A stretch of 44,600 nucleotides of DNA. Source: Laspinema palackyanum D2c. GTDB lineage: Bacteria > Cyanobacteriota > Cyanobacteriia > Cyanobacteriales > Laspinemataceae. The stretch is from assembly GCF_025370875.1 (NCBI RefSeq), contig NZ_JAMXFD010000035.1, positions 10,149 through 54,748 on the forward strand. Direction: 5' to 3'. The notes beneath the pieces were generated by a model that was given only the letters and a program-made list of their open reading frames with translations, ran no database searches and was not told the DNA's origin. This document shows positions 1 to 14,018 of the stretch, piece by piece. Positions within the stretch are counted from its first letter, which is position 1. The number at the start of each line of letters is the position of its first letter. A program made the translations under genes and the position numbers.

Positions 1-560
1 GCAAACGGCCCTGGACTACTTCAACCAATCCTTGCCTGTATTCCGGCAAGTTGGGGATATCCGTGGGGAAGCAACTACCCTCACCTCTATTGGCCTAGTT
101 TACTCGGACTTAGGAGACCAGCAAATCGCCCTGGACTACTACAACCAATCCTTGCCTGTATTCCGGCAAGTTGGGGATATCCGTGGGGAAGCAGCAACCC
201 TCACCTCTATTGGCCTAGTTTACTCGGACTTAGGAGACAAGCAAACGGCCCTGGATTACTACAACCAATCCTTGCCTGTATTCCGGCAAGTTGGGGATAT
301 CCGTGGGGAAGCAGCAACCCTCAACAATATTGGCGCGGTTTACTCAGACTTAGGAGACAAGCAAACGGCCCTGGACTACTACAACCAATCCTTGCCTGTA
401 TTCCGGCAAGTTGGGGATATCCGTGTGGAAGCAACTACCCTCAACAATATTGGCGCGGTTTACTCAGACTTAGGAGACAAGCAAACGGCCCTAGACTACT
501 TCAACCAATCTTTGCCCCTATTCCGGCAAGTGGGGGATAAGGCACTGGAAGCGACTACCC
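1..560 (+). repeat. Near-identical 120-bp tandem repeats encoding TPR units
   Basis: Five head-to-tail units of exactly 120 bp (40 codons) begin at 1, 121, 241, 361 and 481. Units 1-4 differ by only a few bases, including at synonymous positions; unit 5 diverges in its second half. Identity at the DNA level rather than only at protein level points to recent duplication or gene conversion. The array may continue left of the window. Confidence 0.95.
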
Positions 561-2275
561 TCAACAATCTTGCGTGGACAAAGCGCAGTCAAGGCAACCT
601 CCCGGAAGCGCTGACGGACATGGAAGCTGCCATTGCCCTTATCGAAGACCTTCGCACCAAAATCGATAGCGAAAAACTACGCCAGTCTTACTTTGCTCAA
701 AATCAAAATGCCTACGAATTCTACATCGACCTGTTGATGGAACTGCACCAGCAAAACCCCGATCAAGGATATGACAAACAAGCCTTTAATGCCAGTGAAC
801 GCGCTCGCGCTCGCACGTTGTTAGAAATACTCGCTGAAGCCAATGCTGATATCCGCAGTGGGATTGACCCTGAACTGGGGGAGAAGGAACTCAACCTACA
901 GCAGCGCATCAATGCCACGGAATCTCGGCGCATGGAGTTACTTTCTGGAGAACATACTCCAGAACAAGCCAATGCGCTTAAACAAGAACTGGATACTTTG
1001 TTACGGCAACTGGATGAATTAAGAGCAGAAATTCGCCGTACTAGCCCCCGATATGCTGCCCTGACTCAACCCCAACCCCTGACTGTCCAACAAGTTCAGC
1101 AGCAGGTGCTTGACCAGGATACTTTACTCTTACAATATTCCCTGGGTGAAGACCGTAGCTTCCTTTGGGCGGTGACTCCAGATAGTGTGGAGGTGTACGA
1201 ACTCCCGTCTCGGGCAGAAATTGAGGAACTGGGAGAGCAATTTTATCGGTTAATGCAAAATCCCGACTATCGAGGTGAGAGCCGCAATATTACCGTGTCT
1301 CCTAACATTCCTCAAATCAATGCCTCGGCTACCCAACTGAGTCAGCTACTCCTCTCTCCTGTGGCGGATAAATTAGCTGGGAAGCGATTGTTAGTGGTGG
1401 CCGATGGCGTGTTGAATTTTATCCCCTTTGCTGCATTACCCACTCCGGAACAAGGGGATGAGTTGACGCCGTTGTTGGTGAATCAGGAGATTATTAATCT
1501 ACCTTCCTCCTCGACTTTAGCGATTTTGCGACAACAAGATGCAGGACGAACCATTGCACCTCAAACGGTGGCGTTGATTGCGGACCCAGTGTTTGAACTG
1601 GATGATAGACGGGTTACGGGACAAACTGCGGTGAAGACATCGGATTTGGGTCGGATTGTGGTAAATCGTTCTGCGGAGACGATTATTGGGCGTCCGATTC
1701 CTGCATTGCCGGGGACTCGTCAGGAAGCGGAGGCGATTTTGGCGTTAGTGCCTGGGGGTGGGGCGATGTCGGCGTTTGATTTTGATGCTTCTCGCGCTAC
1801 GGTGACGAATACAGATTTAACGCAATATCAAATGGTTCATTTTGCCACTCATGGGTTTGTGAGTAGCAGTAATCCGGAGTTGTCTGGGGTGGTGTTATCT
1901 CTGGTGGATGAGCAAGGGAATGGAGTGGATGGGTTTTTGCGCTTGCATGATATTTTTAATCTCCAGTTGAATGCTCAGGTGGTAGTGCTTTCGGCTTGTC
2001 AAACCGGACTGGGAGACTCAATTCGCGGTGAGGGTTTGGTGGGGTTGACTCGGGGGTTTATGTATGCGGGGACGCCTCGATTGGTAGTTTCGTTATGGAG
2101 TGTGGATGACAATGCTACGGCGGTATTGATGTCGAAGTTTTATGGAAAGTTACTCTCCCAAGGGGTGACTCCAGCCGAAGCGTTGCGGGAGGCACAGTTG
2201 GAGATGTTGGCAAGTGAGGATTGGAAGTCTCCTTATTTTTGGGCGGCGTTTACTTTGCAGGGGGAATGGCGATGA
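1..2275 (+). CDS. TPR-repeat CHAT-domain caspase-like protease (5' end outside window)
   Basis: The reading frame is open to the left edge of the window, so the true start lies upstream; the first possible in-window start, a TTG at 32, falls inside a repeat and is not credible. In order it shows five 40-residue tetratricopeptide repeats (codons to about 600), a charged helical segment (about 640-1070), and a C-terminal CHAT domain (about 1380-2275). CHAT domains are caspase-like cysteine peptidases; the catalytic His lies in HFATHG (codon 1850-1852) and the Cys in SACQTG (codon 1997-1999), so the protease looks active. TPRs usually bind a partner that controls proteolysis. The downstream neighbour on the other strand is a chaperone-protease fusion. 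Cyanobacteria carry many TPR-CHAT paralogues whose substrates are mostly unknown. Family assignment is secure; substrate unknown. Confidence 0.93.
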   Translation, partial: QTALDYFNQSLPVFRQVGDIRGEATTLTSIGLVYSDLGDQQIALDYYNQSLPVFRQVGDIRGEAATLTSIGLVYSDLGDKQTALDYYNQSLPVFRQVGDIRGEAATLNNIGAVYSDLGDKQTALDYYNQSLPVFRQVGDIRVEATTLNNIGAVYSDLGDKQTALDYFNQSLPLFRQVGDKALEATTLNNLAWTKRSQGNLPEALTDMEAAIALIEDLRTKIDSEKLRQSYFAQNQNAYEFYIDLLMELHQQNPDQGYDKQAFNASERARARTLLEILAEANADIRSGIDPELGEKELNLQQRINATESRRMELLSGEHTPEQANALKQELDTLLRQLDELRAEIRRTSPRYAALTQPQPLTVQQVQQQVLDQDTLLLQYSLGEDRSFLWAVTPDSVEVYELPSRAEIEELGEQFYRLMQNPDYRGESRNITVSPNIPQINASATQLSQLLLSPVADKLAGKRLLVVADGVLNFIPFAALPTPEQGDELTPLLVNQEIINLPSSSTLAILRQQDAGRTIAPQTVALIADPVFELDDRRVTGQTAVKTSDLGRIVVNRSAETIIGRPIPALPGTRQEAEAILALVPGGGAMSAFDFDASRATVTNTDLTQYQMVHFATHGFVSSSNPELSGVVLSLVDEQGNGVDGFLRLHDIFNLQLNAQVVVLSACQTGLGDSIRGEGLVGLTRGFMYAGTPRLVVSLWSVDDNATAVLMSKFYGKLLSQGVTPAEALREAQLEMLASEDWKSPYFWAAFTLQGEWR

Positions 2276-2487
2276 GGGGAGGTTGACTCGTCTTGATTTT
2301 GGGGGTGGGGTTTTTGGGGCCGATCGCTCTTGGGAAGAATTAGGCTTTTAGCCTCGAATAAAACCCCCAAATCTTTGAATATCAACTTGATGGTCAATTG
2401 TCATCGTTTAAGATTGGCAGCCAAGAGATGGAATACCCATAAAAATTTAAGGTTTTGTTATTGGACTAATTTAGGAGGTTTAGAAAC

Positions 2488-2886
2488 ATGAGTGAAGCCG
2501 AAGACAACGAAAAGTTTTTTCCTGATGACAATCCCAGCAAAGGAGAGTTATTTATTGAGGTCCCCAGTAATAGTCCTTCCCCTTATATTGAAAGGATTCC
2601 CAATGCTTTGGACCCGATGGGAGAAATTCAGGCGAGGGGAATGATTTTTCGAGGGTTATCCGGAGGAAATGTTCCGGGAATCATGCTAATTTTTGGCTGG
2701 ATAATTTTTGGGACAGTTCCCCTGGTACTTTTAATCGCCATGATTAGTTTGGGCGAATATTCGCTGCTGCCTGTTTTTTTAGTTTCTAGTCTGATGATTG
2801 TGATTTTAGTGCGGGGGACCAAGGCAAAGCTGGATCGGCAGCGAACTCCAACCGGAAGGAGGCGAAGGTTCAGAAGAAGAAGATGA
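2488..2886 (+). CDS. Small two-helix membrane protein, unknown function
   Basis: I do not recognise a characterised family. The 132-residue product has an acidic, proline- and serine-rich N-terminal half (about residues 1-50), two closely spaced hydrophobic segments at about residues 62-84 and 89-107 that should form a membrane hairpin, and a very basic, arginine-rich C-terminus (about residues 110-132, GRRRRFRRRR). That layout resembles small thylakoid membrane proteins with a cytoplasmic basic tail, but this is only a likeness. The start is supported by a strong ribosome-binding site (AGGAGG about 9 bases before the ATG). The gene ends just before a strong hairpin and is convergent with the Hsp70-protease gene. 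Confidence 0.75.
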   Translation: MSEAEDNEKFFPDDNPSKGELFIEVPSNSPSPYIERIPNALDPMGEIQARGMIFRGLSGGNVPGIMLIFGWIIFGTVPLVLLIAMISLGEYSLLPVFLVSSLMIVILVRGTKAKLDRQRTPTGRRRRFRRRR

Positions 2887-2891
2887 ATTAA

Positions 2892-2927
2892 ATCCCTGTT
2901 AAAAAGGGGGATTTTTTTAACAGGGAT
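2892..2927. terminator. Bidirectional intrinsic terminator
   Basis: A perfect 14-bp inverted repeat (arms 2892-2905 and 2914-2927, ATCCCTGTTAAAAA and its complement) with an 8-base loop carries A and T runs on the inner side of the arms. It lies between the convergent genes ending at 2886 (+) and 2974 (-) and could end both transcripts. Confidence 0.7.
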
Positions 2928-2973
2928 GGGTTGAGCCTCAATCTGAACTTTTAGGGGGATTTTTAGGCGGGAT

Positions 2974-5900
2974 TTAGGTGAGGCAAAGGCGGCGCAAGAC
3001 TGAGACGGGAATGGCATAAAACGATCGCTCACTGTAGGCATATCCGTTAGGCCCTTGCCGTTTTTGTTCTAAGGTAAAACTGAGCAACCCGATGACTTCT
3101 CCCCATTGATTTAACAGGGGTGAACCACTAATTCCACCTTGGAGGGGAATGCTCACTTCTAAGACGAGATCGCTGCATAAGGACTGGGGGCGAATTCGGT
3201 TGATTAATCCTACGTTACAGTAAAGATTTTCTTCAAATCTGCCCTCGTAAACCGCAGGAAATCCTAGGGTTAACACTCGTTCCCCTACTTCCACCAATTC
3301 AGAAAAACCCAATCGTAAAGGTGTCAGGGAAACTGAGGTGGGTTTTAAGTGCAAAATCGCTACATCATCGGGTCCCCAAGTGGGTAATTGAATAGAGGCA
3401 ACTTGAATCATTCCCTGTTGGGTAATCACCTGAATGGTGTGGGGTAAAACACATTCTCCCGTTGTTTCATTGAAGACAACATGACGGTTTGTGGCGATGC
3501 GACTGCCTCCGATGAAAAAGCCACTACCATTGCCCGTATGTCCCGGGGAATTCACCTGAATCCATGCCACAGAAGCGGCATAAATCTGTACGGAATGGTT
3601 GAGATTCGTAAAGTCTGGACTGTGAATTCCTAGAGGTTGAGCTTGTGCTTGGAGTAAGGCATGGTAATCTTGCCGTTGTCGCGATCGCGCATAAATTTCT
3701 AGTCCCAATTCCACCTGATTGAGAGAGAAAGGAGGCTCAATTTTCTGAAAATATCCCATCGCCTCGGAGTAGCGCTGAAGACTGAGAAAATGCTGCGCCA
3801 ACTCTTCCGCATTGCCATCGGGATTGACGGCTAAATTCTCGATCGCACTCAACCATTTGAGATAAATTCCAACCACTTCCGTTAATTCCGTTACCGCCTC
3901 ACGAGTTCGTTGAAGTAAACTCGACCCTTCTTGATACATCAGTTTAACCCGATCGCTAATTTCGGTCCCCTTCCCATCTAACGACTGATACCCCTGAATC
4001 CAACTCTCACCACTCCGTTTCAACGTATCCCAGCGATCCTGTGCTAACCGCGCTTTCATCTCCAAATCATTGCGATCGCGATACAGTTCCAACAACATCT
4101 GATTATCGGTTTCCGTTAACAAATATCGGTCCCGATGGCTTTCATAAAAGTGCAACCGTTCTCGCAAGCGCACCGTCAACCCTCCCATTTCCATCTTCTC
4201 AATGGTCCCAAATTGCGCCATGATGTCTGCCGCAATTTTTTGTAAATGTCCCAACTGTTCCTGATAGGTTTGAGCCTCATAAAATCGAGTTTTCAGAGAT
4301 GCCTGTTGAGCCGGAGTTAATAAATGAGAATCAGCAATGGTAATGCTACATTGATTCCCCGTCCCTAGATCCACCGCCGACACTTTTAAAAGGCAATTCG
4401 TATCAATATCAAAAGTCACCTCAATTTGGGGAACCCTTGCTTTGGCTGGAAAAATACCTTCTAAGATAAATTGTCCGATTTTGAAATTTTCCTCGGGAAT
4501 CGGAGATTCTCCTTGAAACACCTGAATTTTAACCCGGGTTTGATTGTCTTCAACCGTTGTATAATTATGACTTTTCTTAGTTGGAATTGTGGTATGTTTA
4601 GGAATCAGCGCATCAAACTTAAACTCCGTGGGGGATACATAAGACTTAATCCCGAGACTAAAGGGAACCACATCCAGTAAAATCGTTTCCTGAAGGGCAC
4701 CCAACAGAATCGCCGCTTGCAACGCCGCACCCCTCGCCACAGCCGTTAACGGATCTAAATCCGCACTCGCTTCTCGTCCAAATACATCCCGAATACACTG
4801 CCGAACCGCAGGCATAATCGCCCCCCCACCAATCAGCAGAATTCGGTGGGGTTTATGGGTGATTTTCTGACAAGTTTGGCGAATTTGATTCAACCAGGGG
4901 GCGGCAAGTTCTTCCAGTTCCTGGCGGGTTAGTTCTAAATCAATGGTTGTGCCATTCATGAATTGGGGAAGCTGAATTGTCCAAGCCTTACGGGTCGAAA
5001 GTTCAATTTTCAACTCTTCGCAAGCCTGACGCAGCCGGGTAGCGGCGAACCGATCGCTGGCAATTTCATACCCCGTTTCCCGTTCTATTTTCGTCACAAA
5101 ATGGCGGTACAAAATCTCATCTAAATCCGCACTGCCTAGAGAATTATCCCCTTCAATTTCTAAGACTTCAAAAACCTTGTCCTCCACCTCAATAATAGAA
5201 ATATCAAAGGTTCCCGCCCCCAAATCAGCAATTAAAACTGTTTCATTTTTAGCCACCCGATGATTCTGCGCCAAACAAGCGGCAGTGGGTTCGTGAATCA
5301 GTCGCAAAACATTGATATCCGCCAGCATTCCTGCGGTTTTGGTGGCTTGTTTTTGAGCATCATTAAAGTAAGCGGGAACCGTAATCACCGCATTGCTTAA
5401 AGGAATCGCCAGGGGATAACGATCCAGATAGGCTGTCACCCACTCTTCGGGGGGCACCGTTCCCATTGCTTGCGCCGCCAGTTTAGAAATCTGTTGGACA
5501 ATCTTTTGCCGGAGGCGATCGCGGGCTAATTGCCGCGCACAATTAATAATTCGCGCCGAAATTTCTTCGGGACGATACACCACTCCCCCCGCTTTAAACT
5601 TAGTATCGGTTCCCATCTTCCGTTTCGCCTGGGTGACAATGGCGCGGGGGGATTTCCCCAGTAACTCCGAGATGGGAACCCCCACCAGTTCTCGCCCGAT
5701 CGGGTCGATCGCAAATACTGAAGGAATTTGTCGTTTTCCCTGCCATTCCACCACTTCCACTTCTGCTGTCCGTTGGTTATACAAACAAACCACACTGTTA
5801 CTGGTGCCGAGATCCAAGCCGATCGCATCAATGTAGTCCCGTAACACCGCTTCCGTGGCGGCTTGCACCCATCGAGGCGCTTGTTGTTCAAACTTGCGCC

Positions 5901-7752
5901 GATCCAACGCTTCAATCTGCGGCAGTTCCCTTGCTACCAAATTCAGCAAGCGATCGCTCACTAAGCCGCGATCGCCCAGTTCCTTGATCCGTCGCAATAA
6001 CTGCGCTTTTTCTGCTGGTGATCGCTCGGGTTCGTAGGCTTTTGCCGCATACAGTTCCGCCAATTCCTCCATTCGTCCAGCTTTTGTGAGTAATTCAATG
6101 AAGCGCTCATCAAACACCACCTGGCGATCGCCCACCTGTTGCCGTCGCAGTTCCGCCGCCCGTTCAAATTCCTTCGCCTGTTCATACATCGCAATGGCGC
6201 GATCGGTTTCCCCTAACTGTTCATACAACAGTCCCGCCATAAAGAAATCTCCCCCTTGTTCCAGCAGTTGTGCCTTTTTCTGAGGAACAAGCTCATTTGT
6301 CTCACTATCTGCCTCATCCAGGGCTGATAACGCTTGCCCGAACGCACCAGCTTTTTCAAATAACAAGGATGCGGTAAAGTAATCTTGGGCTTGCTGCGCC
6401 TTCACTGCCGCTTCTTGATAGTTTCCTGCCGCTTCTTCCAACCCACTCCAGGCTTTGAAAAGTTCAATCTCTCTCACTCCTTGCGCGTCGGTTAACTGGA
6501 GTTCCAACCCAGCGCGAGCCGTTTTGAGGACTTCCCCAAGTAGATGCTGGGTGCGACTGGCTTCAGATTGGACGCGGGATGAGGGGGAATGGTTGCGCCA
6601 TGCTATTTCCAGGGCTTTCAGCAGACGTACCGAGGACAAAAAATCCTGGCGCTCTAAGTGCGATCGCACGGTGGTTTCCATACTCTCTCGGATCTGATCA
6701 ATCCACTCCGGACTAATGCTGGGACGGAGTTGGACTGCTGTCGGTAAGTTCCCCAGTTGGTAATGACAATCACTCGCCCGTTCCCAGTCACCCGCTTTTT
6801 GAAAATGCTCTAACGCCGTTATATAATCGGCTTCATCCCAGAAACAGCAACCCACTTTTTGATGCGCTTGGGCGATCGCCTCCGAGGATTGGATGCGCTC
6901 AGATAAGCTCAACATCTGAAGTGCATTCTCTTTTCCCCCCATCCGCATTCGGTAGGCGATCGCATCCGAATACTCTCGCAACTCTTCCGCTAAATTCGCC
7001 GCCTCTTCCCAGCGCTCAATCAAAGCATAAACCGGATGCAGGCGAGGCAGTTCCTGGGATGTTAATTCTAAGAAAAAGGCTTTCCAGGGTATAGTTTCAT
7101 CAAAGGAATGAGAGACTAACAATTTGGCAATAATCTCTTGCAAATTTACCGGATTCAAATACCCTGCTTGCCGTTGCTGCACCAACTTTTTCAGCAGTCC
7201 ATTATGGTCACCTAGTCGAGCGGTTTCCATACAGATAATCTGCTGGATTTCCCGTCGAGATGCGTCATCTTGCACTCGCCCAGACAGCCGCCAAGCGGCA
7301 TCTAATGCCTGAACCGTTACCGGGTCTCGTTTCAGCAGAATCCTCAGCGATCGTTGGGCGGAAAATGTCCCCGTTGGCGGTAATTTTCCCAGGCGTGGCT
7401 CAAATTGATTAATCACTTGAATCAATTGAGAGGAATCACCCGTGGAATAACGACCCAAAGCATCATATTTTGCCGCCCGGTCCAAAACTTTTGCGTAGGT
7501 TTTCCAAATCTTTTCCCGGTCTGGATAACTGGGAGTTTCCAAGGCTAATAACTGCTCTAAACTTTGGCAACTCCGGCGTAATTGTTGGAACCGATTGCCA
7601 ACTCCTTTGAGTCGGAGTTTCTCAAAAAGATTGGAAACCAATCTGAGCAGGTTTTTGAAAAGATTACCCACAGGGTTTGGTGATTTTAATTTCATCTTAG
7701 ATTTAGACATGAGGTATAAGTTGAGTTTAAATATCGCTAAGGTAAACTCCAT
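2974..7752 (-). CDS. Helical-repeat / Hsp70 / trypsin-like protease fusion protein
   Basis: A 1592-residue protein with three modules. Residues about 40-630 are helical, TPR-like repeats, several of the form A-L-x-x-F-x-K-A-G-D. Residues about 640-1160 are a full Hsp70 (DnaK) unit: phosphate-1 loop GLDLGTSNS, EPTAACLA, phosphate-2 loop DLGAGTFD, adenosine loop LLIGGGAIMP, then a beta-rich substrate-binding region. A helical stretch follows, and residues about 1409-1592 form a trypsin-like serine protease with His1424 (ATNRHVV), Asp1463 (DDVAIL) and Ser1542 (GGISGSP), so the triad appears intact. No signal peptide is evident, so it probably acts in the cytoplasm. A second in-frame start at 7710 (MSKSK) is possible; neither has a clear ribosome-binding site. 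A plausible role is ATP-dependent recognition of proteins coupled to cleavage; this is inference from the domains. Confidence 0.93.
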   Translation of the reverse strand: MEFTLAIFKLNLYLMSKSKMKLKSPNPVGNLFKNLLRLVSNLFEKLRLKGVGNRFQQLRRSCQSLEQLLALETPSYPDREKIWKTYAKVLDRAAKYDALGRYSTGDSSQLIQVINQFEPRLGKLPPTGTFSAQRSLRILLKRDPVTVQALDAAWRLSGRVQDDASRREIQQIICMETARLGDHNGLLKKLVQQRQAGYLNPVNLQEIIAKLLVSHSFDETIPWKAFFLELTSQELPRLHPVYALIERWEEAANLAEELREYSDAIAYRMRMGGKENALQMLSLSERIQSSEAIAQAHQKVGCCFWDEADYITALEHFQKAGDWERASDCHYQLGNLPTAVQLRPSISPEWIDQIRESMETTVRSHLERQDFLSSVRLLKALEIAWRNHSPSSRVQSEASRTQHLLGEVLKTARAGLELQLTDAQGVREIELFKAWSGLEEAAGNYQEAAVKAQQAQDYFTASLLFEKAGAFGQALSALDEADSETNELVPQKKAQLLEQGGDFFMAGLLYEQLGETDRAIAMYEQAKEFERAAELRRQQVGDRQVVFDERFIELLTKAGRMEELAELYAAKAYEPERSPAEKAQLLRRIKELGDRGLVSDRLLNLVARELPQIEALDRRKFEQQAPRWVQAATEAVLRDYIDAIGLDLGTSNSVVCLYNQRTAEVEVVEWQGKRQIPSVFAIDPIGRELVGVPISELLGKSPRAIVTQAKRKMGTDTKFKAGGVVYRPEEISARIINCARQLARDRLRQKIVQQISKLAAQAMGTVPPEEWVTAYLDRYPLAIPLSNAVITVPAYFNDAQKQATKTAGMLADINVLRLIHEPTAACLAQNHRVAKNETVLIADLGAGTFDISIIEVEDKVFEVLEIEGDNSLGSADLDEILYRHFVTKIERETGYEIASDRFAATRLRQACEELKIELSTRKAWTIQLPQFMNGTTIDLELTRQELEELAAPWLNQIRQTCQKITHKPHRILLIGGGAIMPAVRQCIRDVFGREASADLDPLTAVARGAALQAAILLGALQETILLDVVPFSLGIKSYVSPTEFKFDALIPKHTTIPTKKSHNYTTVEDNQTRVKIQVFQGESPIPEENFKIGQFILEGIFPAKARVPQIEVTFDIDTNCLLKVSAVDLGTGNQCSITIADSHLLTPAQQASLKTRFYEAQTYQEQLGHLQKIAADIMAQFGTIEKMEMGGLTVRLRERLHFYESHRDRYLLTETDNQMLLELYRDRNDLEMKARLAQDRWDTLKRSGESWIQGYQSLDGKGTEISDRVKLMYQEGSSLLQRTREAVTELTEVVGIYLKWLSAIENLAVNPDGNAEELAQHFLSLQRYSEAMGYFQKIEPPFSLNQVELGLEIYARSRQRQDYHALLQAQAQPLGIHSPDFTNLNHSVQIYAASVAWIQVNSPGHTGNGSGFFIGGSRIATNRHVVFNETTGECVLPHTIQVITQQGMIQVASIQLPTWGPDDVAILHLKPTSVSLTPLRLGFSELVEVGERVLTLGFPAVYEGRFEENLYCNVGLINRIRPQSLCSDLVLEVSIPLQGGISGSPLLNQWGEVIGLLSFTLEQKRQGPNGYAYSERSFYAIPVSVLRRLCLT

Positions 7753-8284
7753 CGGGACTCGTAAAACACCCTCTGACTATTTCACCTAGAGAATTCTGCC
7801 ATCTTCCGCTTCAAGACTTCAGTAAACCCGGGATGACTGTTCTAAAAAGCCCCGAGTTTTCCCGTCCATCTAGTTAGCATTTCTGCTGCTGGATAATATT
7901 TGTATTCTCTGTGACGATATCCCTCGGGTCATGAATTTAGCTCGAACCCTAGAGAAACCGGGCGATGGAATCATGGCCCTGCGAATCCAACCTACACCCA
8001 TCCCCGGAATCCAGTAATCACCTTTCATGTCACCCTTGCCCATTAAAATTGGTTAACAATTCGCGAGAGTCTGACCGGACAAACTCATTTTTCGATTCTA
8101 ATCCAGGATTCCCTTGATGTCATCCCCTTGAGTCATCTATTTACCGAAAGTCAAGATAAACTGTCGCCACAAAATAATATTAAGAAATAATAAGAAACCC
8201 TGATAAATGCTTTATATCCCGTTTATCCCTCTTCACGGCATAGGCAAAGAGGGATTTTCGCCCTTGGAGGTTAGAATCCCAATT
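7753..8284. other. Gene-free spacer, possible decayed coding remnant
   Basis: No intact gene is visible in these 532 bp. On the plus strand two protein-like stretches, at about 7880-8010 and 8060-8190, read without stops for roughly 40 residues each but are in different frames and lack starts; they may be remains of a degraded gene or chance. The region also holds the promoter of the Hsp70-protease gene, which I cannot place. Confidence 0.3.
8225..8255 (-). terminator. Hairpin downstream of the methyltransferase gene
   Basis: Inverted repeat ATCCCTCTT (8225-8233) / AAGAGGGAT (8247-8255), 13-base loop, 30 bp after the stop of the minus-strand methyltransferase gene. The better T run is on the plus-strand side (8255-8258), so termination for the minus strand is only moderately supported. 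Confidence 0.4.
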
Positions 8285-9235
8285 TTAATTGGATTTCCAA
8301 GCAATAATAGTGCGATGACGCGGATCCGTAGGCACTGTTATTTTATGGGTCAACCCTACGGCTTCTATTTCTGTTTCTAAATTTAAGGTATAGTATTCAT
8401 CGGACCAAGGTTCTGTACTTTTCATTAAAGTGAAAAGCACCGGGGGCAAATTTTGAATGACGGGGGATTGAGGATTGTTATCTACCAACGCTAAATATCC
8501 CCCTTTTCGTAACAGACGAAAAGCTTCTTGGAAAATAGATTTAGTCGCTTGATGGGGTAATTCATGGGTAACAAATTGGAGGGTTATCAAGTCAAAACTT
8601 TCTGACGGTAAATTGGTGTTTTCGGCTTGTTCATGTAGCCATTGAGAAATTTCCTGATTGACATCAAGGGTTTGGGCGACGGCTAACATATAGGGAGATA
8701 AGTCTAAGCCGACAGTGCGAGGAGGTATGTCTTGCTTGTTTTTGTAATAACGATGTAGCGTTAACGTTGACAGACCAATTGAACAGCCGATATCGAGAAT
8801 ATCTGCCACTTTTTTCGGGCCATATTCTCCTAAAACTTGGTGAAAGCTACCGCGTAGCCGATGTTGTGCCACTTCCCAGCTTATTTGTTCTTTTGGCCAT
8901 ACTCTGAGGGCCATTGCGTAAGTAGCAGACTGGGCTTCAAATGCCGCGTCCCAACATAGATTACCGCGCTCATAGGCGTGAAAAGGGACTAAGTAATAGT
9001 CAGGATAGGTAATAGTTGGGTTCGTGAGTTTTGCGAGTAAATTTTTAGCTTCAGACTCTGCTAAATCCGAATAGTTTTTTCGCCAGGGAATGCCATTTTT
9101 TTCGGCGGTTTTGATAATAACCTGTCGGGCTTGTTGTTTCATTAGCCAATAAATAGGCTTGGTCTGAATCAAAAGGTTGACAAATTGGGAGAGGAGGTCA
9201 CTGCCTGCCCAGTCTGGTTTAAGTTTTCCGGTCAT
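8285..9235 (-). CDS. Class I SAM-dependent methyltransferase
   Basis: The 316-residue product has a Rossmann-type methyltransferase core in its C-terminal two thirds: motif I as ILDIGCSIGLS, an acidic motif-II region near GLDLSPYM, and the post-motif FDLITLQFVTHELP typical of UbiE/Methyltransf_11-like enzymes. The N-terminal ~130 residues are helical and not recognised. The methyl acceptor cannot be told from sequence. I chose the ATG at 9235 (MTGKLKPDW); the frame stays open to 9340 but the extra 35 residues are AT-rich, hydrophobic and unlike the family. It stands alone between two hairpins, so it is probably monocistronic. Confidence 0.85.
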   Translation of the reverse strand: MTGKLKPDWAGSDLLSQFVNLLIQTKPIYWLMKQQARQVIIKTAEKNGIPWRKNYSDLAESEAKNLLAKLTNPTITYPDYYLVPFHAYERGNLCWDAAFEAQSATYAMALRVWPKEQISWEVAQHRLRGSFHQVLGEYGPKKVADILDIGCSIGLSTLTLHRYYKNKQDIPPRTVGLDLSPYMLAVAQTLDVNQEISQWLHEQAENTNLPSESFDLITLQFVTHELPHQATKSIFQEAFRLLRKGGYLALVDNNPQSPVIQNLPPVLFTLMKSTEPWSDEYYTLNLETEIEAVGLTHKITVPTDPRHRTIIAWKSN

Positions 9236-9381
9236 TATACCAATAGCAAAAATTAGGACATTTTTTATTCTAAGTTGGGGAGGACACTTCTGCTCTTTTA
9301 TTTTACTTGGGGAATAGAAAATAATATATATATTATGCAAACTGATTTCTCTTTTTATATAACAGAGAAGAGATCAGTTTA

Positions 9382-9413
9382 AAAAGGAGGGCGATCGCGA
9401 TCGCCCTCCTTTT
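9382..9413 (-). terminator. 32-bp perfect palindrome built on a double HIP1 site
   Basis: A perfect palindrome whose centre is GCGATCGCGATCGC (two overlapping HIP1 octamers), flanked by GGAGG / CCTCC and A4 / T4 tails. It lies about 100 bp downstream of the rhomboid gene on the minus strand and has the form of an intrinsic terminator in both directions. Confidence 0.6.
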
Positions 9414-9514
9414 ATAAATATTAAATTACGAACATTAAACCACGAACTACAGTTCAGAAACAACAGCAAGTCATGAGGATGAAAAGCTCTGAAAAGAAAC
9501 TAACCGGGCAAGGG

Positions 9515-10222
9515 TTAGACCGATCGCCGGTTATCAAATAAGCCGAGCAATGGACCTAGCACTGTACCCACTACGAATCCCCCAGCGTGTGCCCAATAAG
9601 CAATTCCGCCACTTTCCATGCCGATGTTGGTTTGTTGAGATAGACCCGCTATACCATACAAGGCTTGCTGGACAAACCAAAACCCGAGAAAGAACACGGC
9701 CGGAATGCGGAAAGTAGTCAGGAAAAATCCCAAGGGAACGAGGGTGAGAATTTTGGATTTGGGATAGCGTAAGATGTAAGCCCCCATGACCCCAGCGATC
9801 GCCCCGGATGCACCCAATGAGGGAATAGTTGAATCCATCGAGAAAAACCACTGGGCTAATACCGCTATCGCTCCACAGGCTAAATAAAAGATGATATATT
9901 TTATATGCCCTAAGCAGTCCTCGACGTTATTGCCAAAAATCCACAGGAATAACATATTCCCACCGAGGTGCAACCAGCCCCCATGTAGAAACTGAGAACT
10001 AAATAAGGTAATCCACTCGGGAACCGTACTAGGGCTGGGTTGTCCGGCAAAGCTGGCACTCAGTTGTTGGGGAACAACGGCCCAATCTTGCAAGAATGCA
10101 TCTAACTGTCCCTGCTGTTGTAAAGAAAGTTCGTAAAAAAAGACCAAAATATTAACGGCGATTAACCCATAAGTTACATAAGGGGTAATTTCCGTTGGCG
10201 TTTCATCATGTAAAGGAACCAC
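9515..10222 (-). CDS. Rhomboid family intramembrane serine protease
   Basis: A polytopic protein of 235 residues with about six hydrophobic segments. It carries the hallmarks of bacterial rhomboids: the L1-loop and helix-2 region with HLGGNM (Asn89), the nucleophile Ser139 in GASGAIAG, and the general base His212 in AHAGGF. Rhomboids cut transmembrane helices of substrates within the membrane; the substrate here is unknown. The N-terminus MVPLHDETPT matches the usual 'PLxDxxPT' opening, supporting the GTG start at 10222, although no good ribosome-binding site precedes it. It follows petJ on the same strand, but a strong terminator separates them. Confidence 0.93.
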   Translation of the reverse strand: MVPLHDETPTEITPYVTYGLIAVNILVFFYELSLQQQGQLDAFLQDWAVVPQQLSASFAGQPSPSTVPEWITLFSSQFLHGGWLHLGGNMLFLWIFGNNVEDCLGHIKYIIFYLACGAIAVLAQWFFSMDSTIPSLGASGAIAGVMGAYILRYPKSKILTLVPLGFFLTTFRIPAVFFLGFWFVQQALYGIAGLSQQTNIGMESGGIAYWAHAGGFVVGTVLGPLLGLFDNRRSV

Positions 10223-10314
10223 AGATTTTATCTTGCTTTTTTCAAACGGTTTGGGACCAAGATAACAAATCTCAGGGCGATCGCCAAATAACCCGAGGCA
10301 GAGATCGCCGCAAA

Positions 10315-10341
10315 AAACCCCTCCGGCAGCCAGAGGGGTTT
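10315..10341 (-). terminator. Intrinsic terminator of petJ
   Basis: Read on the minus strand, a 9-bp stem (AAACCCCTC / GAGGGGTTT, 9-base loop) is followed directly by a run of T; it lies about 100 bp after the petJ stop. Confidence 0.8.
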
Positions 10342-10437
10342 CGTCTTAAACAGGGCAGAAATTGCCGAAATCCGAAAGCCAAGGTGTCAATCGACTTTCA
10401 GAGCGATCGCCTCATCCCCAAGGATGAGTCAAACAAT

Positions 10438-10770
10438 CTACCAGCCTTTTTCAGCTTGTTGGAGAACGTAGGTAGCGACATCTTCGATTTGATCGTCACT
10501 CAGACGGCCCCCAAAAGCAGGCATGGCATTCTTACCATTCTTGACCTGAGTCGTGATGGCGTCAATAGAATTCATGGCGTACTGATCGAGAGCATCTTTT
10601 TTCAGGGTTTTGTTAGCCATGATCACGTTATTGCCACCGGCATGACAAGCGGCACAGTTGGCGCTAAAAATTTTGGCACCATTGGCGGCATCTCCAGCGA
10701 AGGCGGGAGGCACGAAGGCAACAGTCAGGACGGCGATCGCCAACAAAACGATGGATAATAGTCGCTTCAA
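10438..10770 (-). CDS. petJ: Cytochrome c6
   Basis: Soluble lumenal c-type cytochrome that carries electrons from cytochrome b6f to photosystem I (and to terminal oxidase), replacing plastocyanin when copper is scarce. The 110-residue precursor has a signal peptide ending in PPAFA (about residue 25) and an ~85-residue mature protein, the normal size. The haem-binding motif is CAACH (Cys39, Cys42, His43) and the axial methionine is in KNAMPAFGG (Met83). The start is an unusual TTG at 10770, decided by a good ribosome-binding site (GAGGAG about 6-8 bases upstream) and by the position of the signal peptide. It is monocistronic, with a terminator at 10315-10341. Copper control is expected from the family; I could not identify an operator. 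Confidence 0.96.
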
Positions 10771-11112
10771 AGTAGTTCTCCTCTATTTAACTCAGAATTG
10801 TCAGTCAAAAAGTATTTTATCCCGGTTCGTTAACATCCAACGCGATATGCCCAATCGATTCGGTGATGTTTTTCGTAAATTCCCCAACCGAAGCGATCGC
10901 TAGACCCCCTAACCCTAGCCCCCATTTCCGTGACAACCCCGTTGAGCGTCTCGGGTAAAAACCTTTACAGTAGAGGCAAAGTCGGCAATTTAGCTCCCCT
11001 CCGACAGCCTCGGGAAGGGGTTCCCCCGGGAGGAACTCAACCCCTCGGTATTGTGCATTCGTCCTTTACACTAAAGGGTGATGGGGAGATTTAACAAAAA
11101 GATGTAGCTGTA
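10771..11112. other. Divergent promoter region between petJ and the diguanylate cyclase gene
   Basis: No gene is visible. The stretch at about 10990-11055 is G+C-rich with several short complementary blocks (for example GTTCC / GGAAC at about 11022-11038) and may form a structured leader for the plus-strand gene. No known riboswitch pattern was recognised. Confidence 0.4.
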
Positions 11113-12684
11113 ATGTTTGTGTCTTCTCTTAGACAGGCGATCAATCCCCAACCCATCACCACCACGGCAGATACCAGTGTAGAAGCCGTGATCGCGCTGA
11201 TGAGTCGGGCCAGAACCAGTGGTGTCCTCATCCTAGACTCTCAGCGAGGAAACGGGACTCAACGGGAGCAATTAATCGGGATTTTTACAGAACGGGATGT
11301 GGTCCGAATGATTGCAGCCTCTCAAAAATTTAAGGGAGTTGCGATCGCGGAGGTGATGACAAAAAATGTCCTCACCCTGACCGAATCCTTAACCGAGGAT
11401 CAAGATATCGTCACCGTACTGACCCTATTTCGTCAACATCGAATTCGCCATCTGCCCGTATTTGATGTGAATGGAACCCTCATGGGTATCCTCACCCAAC
11501 AGGGGATCCGTACCGTCCTCAAACCGATTGATTTCATGCGTCTGCGGCGAGTGGCGGAAGTGATGATCACTCGGGTGATTCATGCCCCAGTCTCGACCAC
11601 GGTGATTAATATTGCCAAACTCATGGCAATTTATAACGTCAGTTGCGTCGTGATCGCTCAAGCGGATCATCAGGGATTAACTCCCCTGGATTCAAGCTGG
11701 GGGGTGTGGTCCGCAGATAGCTGTCAAATCAAACCCGTTCGTCCCGTGGGCATCATCACCGAACGGGATATGTTACAGTTCCGGAATCTTGAACTAGACC
11801 TAGAGCGCCTCAGAGCCTCGACGGTGATGAGTGCGCCCTTATTTCCGATCGCCCCGGTTGCTTCCTTGTGGGAAGCCCATCAGCAGATGCAACGGCGACG
11901 GGTGCATCGCTTAGTCGTGGTCGGAAATGAGGGGGAACTTGGGGGAATTATCACCCAAACCAGTTTATTGCAAGCCTTAGACCCGATGGAAATGTATGCA
12001 GAGATTGAGGTCTTACAGGAATTATTGCAACAATCGGAATCGGAACGCGAAGCCCTGCTCAAGCAACTGATTGCTCGGAATAAATTACTTGAATCTCTGG
12101 CCCTGACCGATGAGTTGACCGGATTACCCAACCGCAGGGCAATGGAACAGGCGCTGCCCCAAATGCTCCCCCATTCTGCGGCCCAGGAGAAGTCTGTCTA
12201 TAGCGACTATATTTGCCTGTTTGCCATTGATGTGGATTTTTTTAAACGGGTGAATGATACTTATGGTCATCCCACCGGAGATGAAGTGCTCAAAGAAATT
12301 GCGGCGCGGTTGCAAAGACGGGCCCGGGCGAATAGTTGGTTTTATCGCTATGGGGGGGAGGAATTTATTTGTTTAACGGTGGGGATTGGACCGGAAACGG
12401 CTTGGGAATATGGGGAAGAGTTGCGAGAGGCGATCGCCCAGGAACCGTTCATCACTGCCGAGGAGGTAGAAATTCCCATAACCATTAGCATGGGTGGGGC
12501 GATCGCCCCACTTTCGGGGATAACCGCCGCCGGGGTCCAAATCGGACAAGACCCCCAGTCTTTACTAGAGTTTGCCGATCGCGCCTTATATCAAGCCAAA
12601 CGAGAGGGCCGCAATCGAGTGCAGTTCTGTCCTTATTCGGAAATTCTCTGCAAATTCGACCCTAACCCTCTCGATGCCCAGTAA
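11113..12684 (+). CDS. Diguanylate cyclase with four CBS motifs
   Basis: Probably makes the second messenger cyclic di-GMP from two GTP. Residues about 8-140 and 145-300 form two CBS pairs (repeated GIxTERDxxR and GxxxxGIxTQ patterns), which usually bind adenine nucleotides and regulate the attached enzyme. A helical linker (about 300-335) leads to a GGDEF domain beginning LTDELTGLPNRRA. The signature is GGEEF (residues 414-418), a catalytically competent form. The inhibitory I-site expected as RxxD five residues before it reads R405-A-N-S408, so the Asp is replaced and product inhibition may be lost. No transmembrane segment is seen, so it is cytoplasmic. It ends only 5 bp from the convergent psbV2 stop. 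Confidence 0.93.
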   Translation: MFVSSLRQAINPQPITTTADTSVEAVIALMSRARTSGVLILDSQRGNGTQREQLIGIFTERDVVRMIAASQKFKGVAIAEVMTKNVLTLTESLTEDQDIVTVLTLFRQHRIRHLPVFDVNGTLMGILTQQGIRTVLKPIDFMRLRRVAEVMITRVIHAPVSTTVINIAKLMAIYNVSCVVIAQADHQGLTPLDSSWGVWSADSCQIKPVRPVGIITERDMLQFRNLELDLERLRASTVMSAPLFPIAPVASLWEAHQQMQRRRVHRLVVVGNEGELGGIITQTSLLQALDPMEMYAEIEVLQELLQQSESEREALLKQLIARNKLLESLALTDELTGLPNRRAMEQALPQMLPHSAAQEKSVYSDYICLFAIDVDFFKRVNDTYGHPTGDEVLKEIAARLQRRARANSWFYRYGGEEFICLTVGIGPETAWEYGEELREAIAQEPFITAEEVEIPITISMGGAIAPLSGITAAGVQIGQDPQSLLEFADRALYQAKREGRNRVQFCPYSEILCKFDPNPLDAQ

Positions 12685-12689
12685 TGGCA

Positions 12690-13190
12690 TTAACCTGTAA
12701 AGTCTTTGGTCCCCCAACCCGGTGCTTTTTGAGCCGCCCGGATAATAAAGGCCGCCATGTTTTCCACCTGTTCCGTCGGCAGCCAAGTCTCCGAGACCTC
12801 TCGACACCAGTAGATGTCCTCGCTGCCGTCATAATTCATCGGGGTCCGCATATAAGCGACCAACCCTTCGAGATTATTCCGGGGGGGGGTTGCGCCGCTG
12901 AGGTCCTCTAGGGACAGAGAGACTGCCGGATAGGGCAAGGTTGCCCCTCCCACATGACAGTTCAGGCAATGTTGTTTAAATAACTCTTTGCCTTCATGCA
13001 AACCCTCCGGAGAAAATAAGCGGGTTTCTCCTTGCTGATTGATTTCGATGGGCACGGGCTCGGTTACCTGCAAATAGCGGCGCAAATAGAGGTCAATCGA
13101 GTCGGCCTGTGCCGGTAATGTGAAATTCATAAAACCCAGGCAGGTAACGACGATCGCCACCACTGAGCGGATTAAAAATTTTTGCAACAT
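12690..13190 (-). CDS. psbV2: PsbV2, cytochrome c-550-like protein
   Basis: A paralogue of the photosystem II extrinsic cytochrome c-550, encoded directly downstream of psbV as in other cyanobacteria. From the ATG at 13190 the 166-residue precursor has a signal peptide ending in LPAQA (about residue 29) and a haem motif CLNCH (Cys75, Cys78, His79). Where PsbV has its axial His in SELHPS, this protein has DIYWCREV: no His is present and Cys129 is the likely sixth ligand. PsbV2 of a thermophilic cyanobacterium is known to use His/Cys ligation, so the assignment fits. The frame is open to 13244, but that adds residues before the signal peptide. The protein probably resides in the thylakoid lumen; its role is not established. 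Confidence 0.88.
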   Translation of the reverse strand: MLQKFLIRSVVAIVVTCLGFMNFTLPAQADSIDLYLRRYLQVTEPVPIEINQQGETRLFSPEGLHEGKELFKQHCLNCHVGGATLPYPAVSLSLEDLSGATPPRNNLEGLVAYMRTPMNYDGSEDIYWCREVSETWLPTEQVENMAAFIIRAAQKAPGWGTKDFTG

Positions 13191-13353
13191 TAGCACTTGA
13201 GTTGGGGTGCGGTTTAATCGCGAATTCTGACCCTGGATTTCCACAGGTGATGAGTCGGGAATCCTTTAGGGGGGATAAGCACACTCAGGGTTAGAAACTC
13301 TCACTCCGACGCCGGTGCCACGGACAAGAGTTGGGTTCAAGGGTGAGCATAGA

Positions 13354-13445
13354 GCGTTTTGGGGTTTGGAGAATCCCGCTCTTGTCGATCGCCTCTCCTA
13401 GGGGAGAGGGAGTACCGATCGCTGATTTCCCAATCCCCAAAACGC
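13354..13445. repeat. Long inverted repeat in the psbV-psbV2 spacer
   Basis: An 11-bp inverted repeat, GCGTTTTGGGG (13354-13364) / CCCCAAAACGC (13435-13445), encloses a second palindrome CTCTCC-TAGG-GGAGAG (13393-13408). It lies in the 336-bp spacer between the two minus-strand cytochrome genes. It may be a processing or partial termination signal or a repeat element; no T run follows on the minus strand. Confidence 0.5.
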
Positions 13446-13526
13446 CCTTTTGCACTTGAGTCCTTCCGTTACAACATCCGTGAGGCCCGGTCGAGTCTGA
13501 ATGCAGTCTGTAACCGATGGTCCGAT

Positions 13527-14018
13527 TTAGCGGTAGGCTTTACCACCACCCCATTGGATGCCTTGGATTTTAGGCTGAATGAGGATGTGTCCGGCGATCG
13601 CGAACAGATCGTCCTCGGTCAGATTTCTCATTTCGGCGAAAATATCCGCACTCTTAATGCTGGGGTGTAATTCGGAAATGTCCGTCTCCCCGTCATAGCT
13701 TGTCGGATTCTTCATGTAATCGATTAACCCTTCAATCGTATCTCGTCGAGGAGTGGCAAAGGCCAAATCTTCTTGGCTCAAACTCACGTTGAAGTCGGTT
13801 TTGGTCACCCCACCGGCATGGCATTTGGAGCAGGTATCGTTAAATACCCGTTTGCCTCGTTCAACTTGTTGCAAGCTCAAGACGATCGTCTCGCCACTGT
13901 CGTTTAAGGGTACGGTGCGGATCCCGCGATCGAGTTCCACTGCCGTGGCATTCCCGACAAATATTTGAAAGGTGAAGAATACAGTGGCTACAGCCAGCCA
14001 GATGCATCTTTTCAGCAT
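13527..14018 (-). CDS. psbV: Photosystem II cytochrome c-550
   Basis: Lumenal extrinsic subunit that stabilises the oxygen-evolving manganese cluster of photosystem II. From the ATG at 14018 the precursor is 163 residues with a signal peptide ending at about residue 26 (GNATA), giving a 137-residue mature protein, exactly the usual size. The haem motif is CSKCH (Cys63, Cys66, His67) and the axial ligand is His118 in SELHPSIKSAD, so bis-His ligation is kept. The start is supported by GAGGA about 6 bases upstream; the frame is open to 14063 but those residues precede the signal peptide. The C-terminus reads WGGGKAYR, close to the usual ending. psbV2 follows after 336 bp on the same strand. Confidence 0.96.
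   Translation of the reverse strand: MLKRCIWLAVATVFFTFQIFVGNATAVELDRGIRTVPLNDSGETIVLSLQQVERGKRVFNDTCSKCHAGGVTKTDFNVSLSQEDLAFATPRRDTIEGLIDYMKNPTSYDGETDISELHPSIKSADIFAEMRNLTEDDLFAIAGHILIQPKIQGIQWGGGKAYR

Follow-up and report, generated by a model that had tools for sequence, protein, structure and literature searches.

A single-chain alpha-solenoid, Hsp70 and S1 protease fusion in Laspinema palackyanum D2c and a few other bacteria

Genes and domains at the locus

The window, i.e., the whole 44,600-nt stretch of Laspinema palackyanum D2c DNA analyzed here, holds a reading frame open over 1592 codons, flanked on one side by genes for a 132-aa protein and a TPR-CHAT protein (CHAT being a caspase-like peptidase domain) and on its upstream side by methyltransferase and rhomboid protease genes (Table 1; residues are numbered from Met1 of the frame). 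A Pfam scan and structure models place an alpha-solenoid, an Hsp70, a helical segment and an S1 protease in this order within the one chain, which bears out the preliminary description of a single protein joining such parts with no frameshift. Segment by segment, Pfam detects HSP70 (PF00012) at aa 643-1158 (profile 1-515 of 599, E 1.9e-117), the full Trypsin_2 profile (PF13365) at aa 1409-1556 (E 5.3e-17), and weak TPR/clathrin-repeat matches ahead of the Hsp70. The true start is probably Met20 rather than Met1, because the frame itself opens there in three of four relatives from the same genus (L026-L028).

Table 1. Features of the fusion gene and its surroundings, in window coordinates
Feature	Position	Strand	Basis or remark
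Whole ORF, 1592 aa	2974..7752	-	open over 1592 codons; probable start Met20 at 7695
Basic amphipathic helix, aa 30-47	7612..7665	-	hydrophobic moment 0.73, shuffle p 0.001
All-helical TPR-type solenoid, aa 58-640	5833..7581	-	AlphaFold2 model; Foldseek and profile matches
Hsp70 nucleotide-binding domain, aa 641-1018	4699..5832	-	PF00012; phosphate, Lys, Glu and adenosine motifs
Family-specific 34-residue insert, aa 752-785	5398..5499	-	alignment to own-genome DnaK L001, spacing, survey
Interdomain linker and beta substrate-binding domain, aa 1019-1140	4333..4698	-	Pfam; invariant residues
Helical segment in lid position, aa 1141-1390	3583..4332	-	model helices aa 1147-1305
S1 (trypsin-fold) protease domain, aa 1391-1592	2977..3582	-	PF13365; PDB relatives SplE, Deg5, HtrA
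Catalytic His1424 codon	3481..3483	-	motif TNRHV
Catalytic Asp1463 codon	3364..3366	-	motif DDVAIL
Catalytic Ser1542 codon	3127..3129	-	motif GGISGSP
TPR-CHAT gene	2..2275		convergent with fusion, beyond 132-aa gene
132-aa small protein gene	2488..2886	+	convergent with fusion; no Pfam family
Segment absent at the same site in fusion-less genomes of the genus	2278..9501	.	blastn of window 1-14000 against L165, L166, L167

For the N-terminal half, an AlphaFold2 model of aa 54-660 (six sequences; mean pLDDT 79, pTM 0.45) lists 36 helices and no strand, and both profile and Foldseek comparisons show a resemblance to TPR- and IFT-type solenoids, at low TM-scores (0.08-0.27). The model of aa 636-1592 (seven sequences; mean pLDDT 61, pTM 0.40) has an Hsp70 part that matches DnaK structures, with Foldseek alignments to open DnaK of ~700 columns at TM-scores < 0.6. 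Its helices in the lid position (aa 1147-1305) mostly have pLDDT 74-88, falling to 35-55 at the start and at one joint, and its protease has pLDDT 51-75 over aa 1396-1472 and < 50 over aa 1473-1592.

Membership of the Hsp70 superfamily is indicated by a profile that covers the nucleotide-binding and beta substrate-binding domains and by the presence of the ATP-binding motifs, with scores below the cut-offs of the DnaK equivalog TIGR02350 (398 vs. 823 bits) and of NF001413 (411 vs. 648 bits). The nucleotide loops are kept as first described, all compared ATP motifs being intact in the window protein. The Hsp70 had also been called complete, which stands for the nucleotide-binding domain, linker and beta substrate-binding domain but not for the lid, which goes unrecognized by sequence: in each of five members scanned, the HSP70 match stops between positions 515 and 544 of the 599-position profile. 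At the C-terminus, the trypsin-fold profile was found in the window protein and four relatives, the best PDB matches are SplE and Deg5, and the triad motifs align with the corresponding motifs of Staphylococcus aureus SplE (PDB 5mm8). The same genome also encodes three full-length DnaKs and has 13 other Trypsin_2 places; a 1249-aa frame with Trypsin_2 (L053, G000:C55:1267-1746) lies on the contig of one of these DnaK genes.

Distribution and common descent of the fusion

The exact domain order recurs in 14 distinct intact proteins with unbroken frames of 1496-1609 aa, so that homologues of the same architecture do exist. Twelve are cyanobacterial (the window protein and 11 others; five in the window's genus), one comes from a Candidatus Obscuribacter MAG, and one from a plasmid record of Embleya (Actinomycetota), a member of Streptomycetaceae; L009-L012 were treated as the same loci as L026, L027, L028 and L023 and counted once. 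The Embleya protein (1496 aa) is 25% identical in the solenoid and has the same order by Pfam. An assembly artefact was rejected on these unbroken frames in 14 distinct proteins from separate records.

To gauge how widespread the fusion is, several samples were searched. Short peptide patterns of the window protein, which reach close relatives only, recovered five near-full-length relatives from genome contigs (three Laspinema, Anabaena sp. FACHB-1237 and the Candidatus Obscuribacter MAG) together with one ordinary DnaK. With the solenoid (aa 30-640) as query, carriers amounted to five of eight genomes in the window's genus, 13 of 388 in its order (one of them, G523, a broken remnant) and 4 of 386 in its phylum, these samples being overlapping and the order and phylum scans scoring up to three first-look candidates per genome. 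The G523 remnant (L040, 2126-3693), in which only pieces of the solenoid were found, lies near a protein kinase-WD40 gene. One of 289 genomes was positive in the class of the Obscuribacter MAG, namely the MAG itself. Among plasmids, through which alone the Actinomycetota were covered, the solenoid query found the single Embleya record and the C-terminal query six protease-only records; among phages, the C-terminal 452 residues found two staphylococcal records with Spl-type protease matches. Viral contigs gave at least 80 loci, and among the matches listed all fall within query residues 638-1256, with no protease and no solenoid beyond its last residues.

A maximum-likelihood tree groups the Hsp70 parts of the 14 fusions as one clade (UFboot 100) against 13 DnaKs (three from the window genome, one from Nitrospinales and nine from viral contigs), which were what 27 candidate loci yielded. 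The spacing between two anchors is 60-61 residues in 14 of 14 fusions vs. 27 in 7 of 13 DnaKs, the other six DnaKs being uncounted since an anchor was not found or mis-set, and a pairwise alignment shows the 34-residue insert to be absent from the window genome's DnaK L001. Separate fusion events are thus unlikely, given the single Hsp70 clade and the common insert.

An insert profile matched 4 of 292 phylum genomes, exactly the four in which the solenoid was found, and a protease profile matched 8 of 120 order genomes, i.e., seven fusions and one 480-aa frame. This frame (L156, G413:C1:4430643-4431107; E 7e-19) is the only non-fusion match at E <= 1e-15 in the 120 genomes. Half-built forms were not found in either profile sample, the broken copy aside. 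Judging by these profiles, solenoid, insert-bearing Hsp70 and protease travel as one unit.

Contamination of the Obscuribacter MAG by one of the cyanobacterial lineages compared is unlikely, as its 5.8-kb fusion contig (L013) is closer in tetranucleotide composition to six contigs of that MAG (distances 0.23-0.29) than to six sequences from cyanobacteria, the window among them (0.31-0.67). On sequence evidence, then, the fusion is real, old and common to distant lineages, though rare among the genomes sampled: its age and reality follow from its presence in a few other bacteria, and chance is discounted because the order recurs in 14 proteins and the segments tested are under purifying selection (see below).

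Conservation, neighborhood and alternative readings

Outside Embleya, the compared ATP motifs are kept in 13 of 13 members, and Embleya has small changes (e.g., the third Gly of the adenosine motif is a Pro). Five residues are invariant in 13 members, of which we take D1027 to belong to the linker and Y1064, Q1071, V1074 and I1076 to the substrate pocket, by analogy with Escherichia coli DnaK. In the protease, C1512 and C1526 (window 3175-3219) are likewise invariant in 13 of 13 non-Embleya members and absent from Embleya, and may form a redox switch or metal site. Of the 12 cyanobacterial members, all but L037 (p 0.13) have a basic N-terminal helix that is significantly amphipathic (shuffle p < 0.02 in 11); the same hydrophobic-moment/shuffle test did not show it in the Obscuribacter member, and the Embleya leader is too short for this test. 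Leader sequences diverge strongly from one genus to another, with 13-37% identity to the window protein beyond its own genus. In the cyanobacterial members, the helix suggests that the protein touches a membrane surface.

The gene is accessory and patchy, with clean presence or absence at one site of the genus. All three non-carriers of the genus (G388, G389, G390; completeness 92, 87 and 100) have an empty site: on a single contig, 0.2-0.5 kb separates the CHAT gene from the rhomboid gene, and neither the fusion nor the 132-aa gene nor the methyltransferase is matched; in one of these genomes (L165, G390) two long matches to the TPR-CHAT protein occur in tandem. The site also varies among carriers in its methyltransferase genes; across the genus (window 2278-9501; L029:4524-7368), the fusion, the 132-aa gene and as many as three methyltransferase genes are variously present or missing. 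No transposase or recombinase was recognized by Pfam among the neighbors scanned, and among the repeat families listed (20 of 35 direct, 10 inverted) none forms terminal repeats around the variable block. The 132-aa gene, whose product shows hydrophobic stretches by eye, adjoins the fusion in four of five carriers of the genus (by tblastn for the window and L028, by clustering with L028 for L026 and L029) and was not found in L027. Clustering the neighbors of all 14 loci showed that they differ between genera, with no partner gene conserved across them and no CHAT gene beside the fusion outside the window's genus; other genera have an ABC transporter (solute-binding protein, permease, ATPase), an FHA-ABC protein, a CobW GTPase, a histidine kinase and a WD40 protein. 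Promoter and terminator scans gave no more than shuffled sequences did.

This distribution bears on the suggestion, made at the outset, of a role in defense or cell death. In a conflict protein of this kind, the Hsp70 and the solenoid would act as a sensor that keeps the protease inactive; binding of a damaged protein or of a signal from an invader would then release it to cut a host or effector target. We consider such a conflict protein unlikely. The patchy spread (five of eight genus, 13 of 388 order genomes with one copy broken, and 4 of 386 phylum genomes) and the empty sites in every genus non-carrier would fit it, as would its carriers, which include a Streptomycetaceae member as well as cyanobacteria of filamentous habit. 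Hsp70-linked GTPase systems and trypsin domains are indeed described among conflict systems of multicellular bacteria in passages of PMC7159879, in which effector-position trypsin domains are nearly all inactive. Against it, selected neighbors scanned with Pfam at 8 of 14 loci, all from outside Embleya, mostly belong to transport, signaling, methyltransferase and housekeeping families and include no recognized defense gene, and no MoxR-vWA or GTPase conflict-system core gene was found beside the fusion among the 14 clustered loci or these scanned neighbors. PADLOC matches on the fusion cover its protease or Hsp70 part only (PDLC02960, PDLC02959, PDLC04593, PDLC04731), none spans the whole protein as a known defense system, the Embleya protein has none at all, and beyond the fusion the methyltransferase part matches one model only. 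The protein is moreover under purifying selection, instead of the rapid change expected of arms-race parts. What the patchy distribution, the presence or absence at one site and the adjoining CHAT gene in the genus do favor is an accessory role.

The His1424/Asp1463/Ser1542 triad first reported for the window protein is indeed there, and nine relatives besides keep it (10 of 14 fusion proteins), but it is not universal. One genus (L024, L025, L038) has Arg or Tyr in place of the His, L024 lacking the Ser as well (Gly instead), and the triad Asp aligns with Asn in Embleya; L039 keeps the triad with a Glu two residues ahead of the Ser, presumably in place of the expected oxyanion-site Gly. Binding and cutting fused in one chain, as originally proposed, could therefore apply to the window protein but not to the family at large: with the triad lost from four of the 14 proteins, cutting is not common to all members and catalysis appears dispensable in some lineages.

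All five segments tested are nonetheless under purifying selection in two genera, with dN/dS of 0.05-0.28 per segment across 13 pairs (10 in the window's genus, three in the His-less genus). For the protease, dN/dS is 0.08-0.26 in the window's genus, where the four pairs with L029 are the laxest (0.19-0.26) and looser than the nucleotide-binding domain, and 0.18-0.20 in the three His-less pairs. The protease thus remains constrained in the His-less genus, which suggests that selection preserves the fold even after a probable loss of catalysis. These observations could point to a chaperone with a scaffolding or regulatory role, whose protease fold would chiefly bind peptides, with cutting secondary or ancestral: the fold is still recognizable after triad loss (Trypsin_2 E 7.9e-16 in L024), and the ATP motifs are kept in 13 members with small changes in Embleya. 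We nevertheless regard this as quite unlikely, given the full triad in 10 of 14 members and a protease about as constrained as the nucleotide-binding domain in the 6 of 10 genus pairs without L029. Finally, general quality control, with any misfolded protein handed to the fusion's own protease to supplement Clp, FtsH and Deg in a minor way, is improbable despite the conserved substrate-pocket positions, since the distribution is too sporadic for general housekeeping, the genome already has the DnaKs and Trypsin_2 places noted above, and no CIRCE heat-shock element was found in the window (up to three mismatches to the CIRCE pattern allowed).

Proposed function and comparison with known systems

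We tentatively favor, at somewhat short of an even chance, a single-chain client-processing machine, i.e., a client-capturing chaperone with a tethered cutter that serves as a non-catalytic module in some lineages. In this machine, the solenoid would recruit a particular partner or client, possibly at a membrane surface in the cyanobacterial forms, and the Hsp70 engine would bind ATP and an exposed client peptide through its linker and beta substrate-binding domain. The S1 protease, tethered past the lid-like helices, may then be brought to the held client by ATP-driven lid movement and would clip it, in selective or limited cleavage and not bulk degradation. Where catalysis is lost, the retained protease fold could act as a further module, for peptide binding or regulation. 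The domain order, the intact ATP motifs, the triad of the window protein, the common descent of the Hsp70 part and selection on the tested segments are read directly from the sequences; contact with a membrane, delivery to the protease under ATP control and the choice of clients by the solenoid are what we infer.

This client-processing reading is favored because of its domains and triad, the invariant linker and pocket positions, the low dN/dS, the co-travelling parts, the single clade, the modeled solenoid and lid-like helices, and the amphipathic helix at the N-terminus. It is weakened by the triad loss in 4 of 14 members, the laxer protease in pairs with L029 and the lack of a cross-genus partner gene, as well as by the low scores of the model (protease second half pLDDT < 50, pTM 0.40), the amphipathic helix being unseen in the Obscuribacter member and not significant in L037, and the lack of a CIRCE element.

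Among known systems, the NTP-dependent conflict systems described in parts of PMC7159879 share chaperones, TPR proteins and trypsin-like, often inactive peptidases with the fusion, but are multi-gene, with MoxR-vWA or GTPase cores that are absent from the fusion neighbors examined; the solenoid-Hsp70-trypsin order was not found in those parts of the source. More generally, the parts of the fusion are known ones, but no description of their order was found in the open-licence literature, in keeping with the preliminary statement that no characterized protein is known to have it. DnaK/Hsp70 (PF00012) has the same nucleotide-binding domain, linker, beta substrate-binding domain and ATP motifs, whereas the fusion is a ~1570-residue chain with a 34-residue insert, a lid unrecognized by sequence, and a protease where DnaK has its usual C-terminal tail. 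With S1 proteases (the staphylococcal Spl/V8 group, Deg/HtrA, Trypsin_2) it shares the fold profile and triad motifs, but it has no PDZ domain in the Pfam scan, sits behind an Hsp70 and has lost the triad in some members.

Lon and FtsH are single-chain ATP-dependent proteases built on AAA+ ring unfoldases, and like them the fusion puts an ATPase and a protease on one chain; unlike them, it has an Hsp70 in place of the AAA+ ring and no sign of a ring or chamber. It is tempting, if doubtful, to go further and see in it an Hsp70-powered protease, which would be the first ATP-gated proteolytic machine based on an Hsp70 instead of an AAA+ unfoldase: a single chain working on a membrane surface, its own solenoid selecting the clients, with natural protease-dead forms among its sister lineages. 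In the current understanding, Hsp70s hold and pass on substrates, with proteolysis left to other machines. A natural single-chain fusion raises directly the question of whether Hsp70 cycling can feed a protease, for which the naturally triad-less members provide built-in controls.
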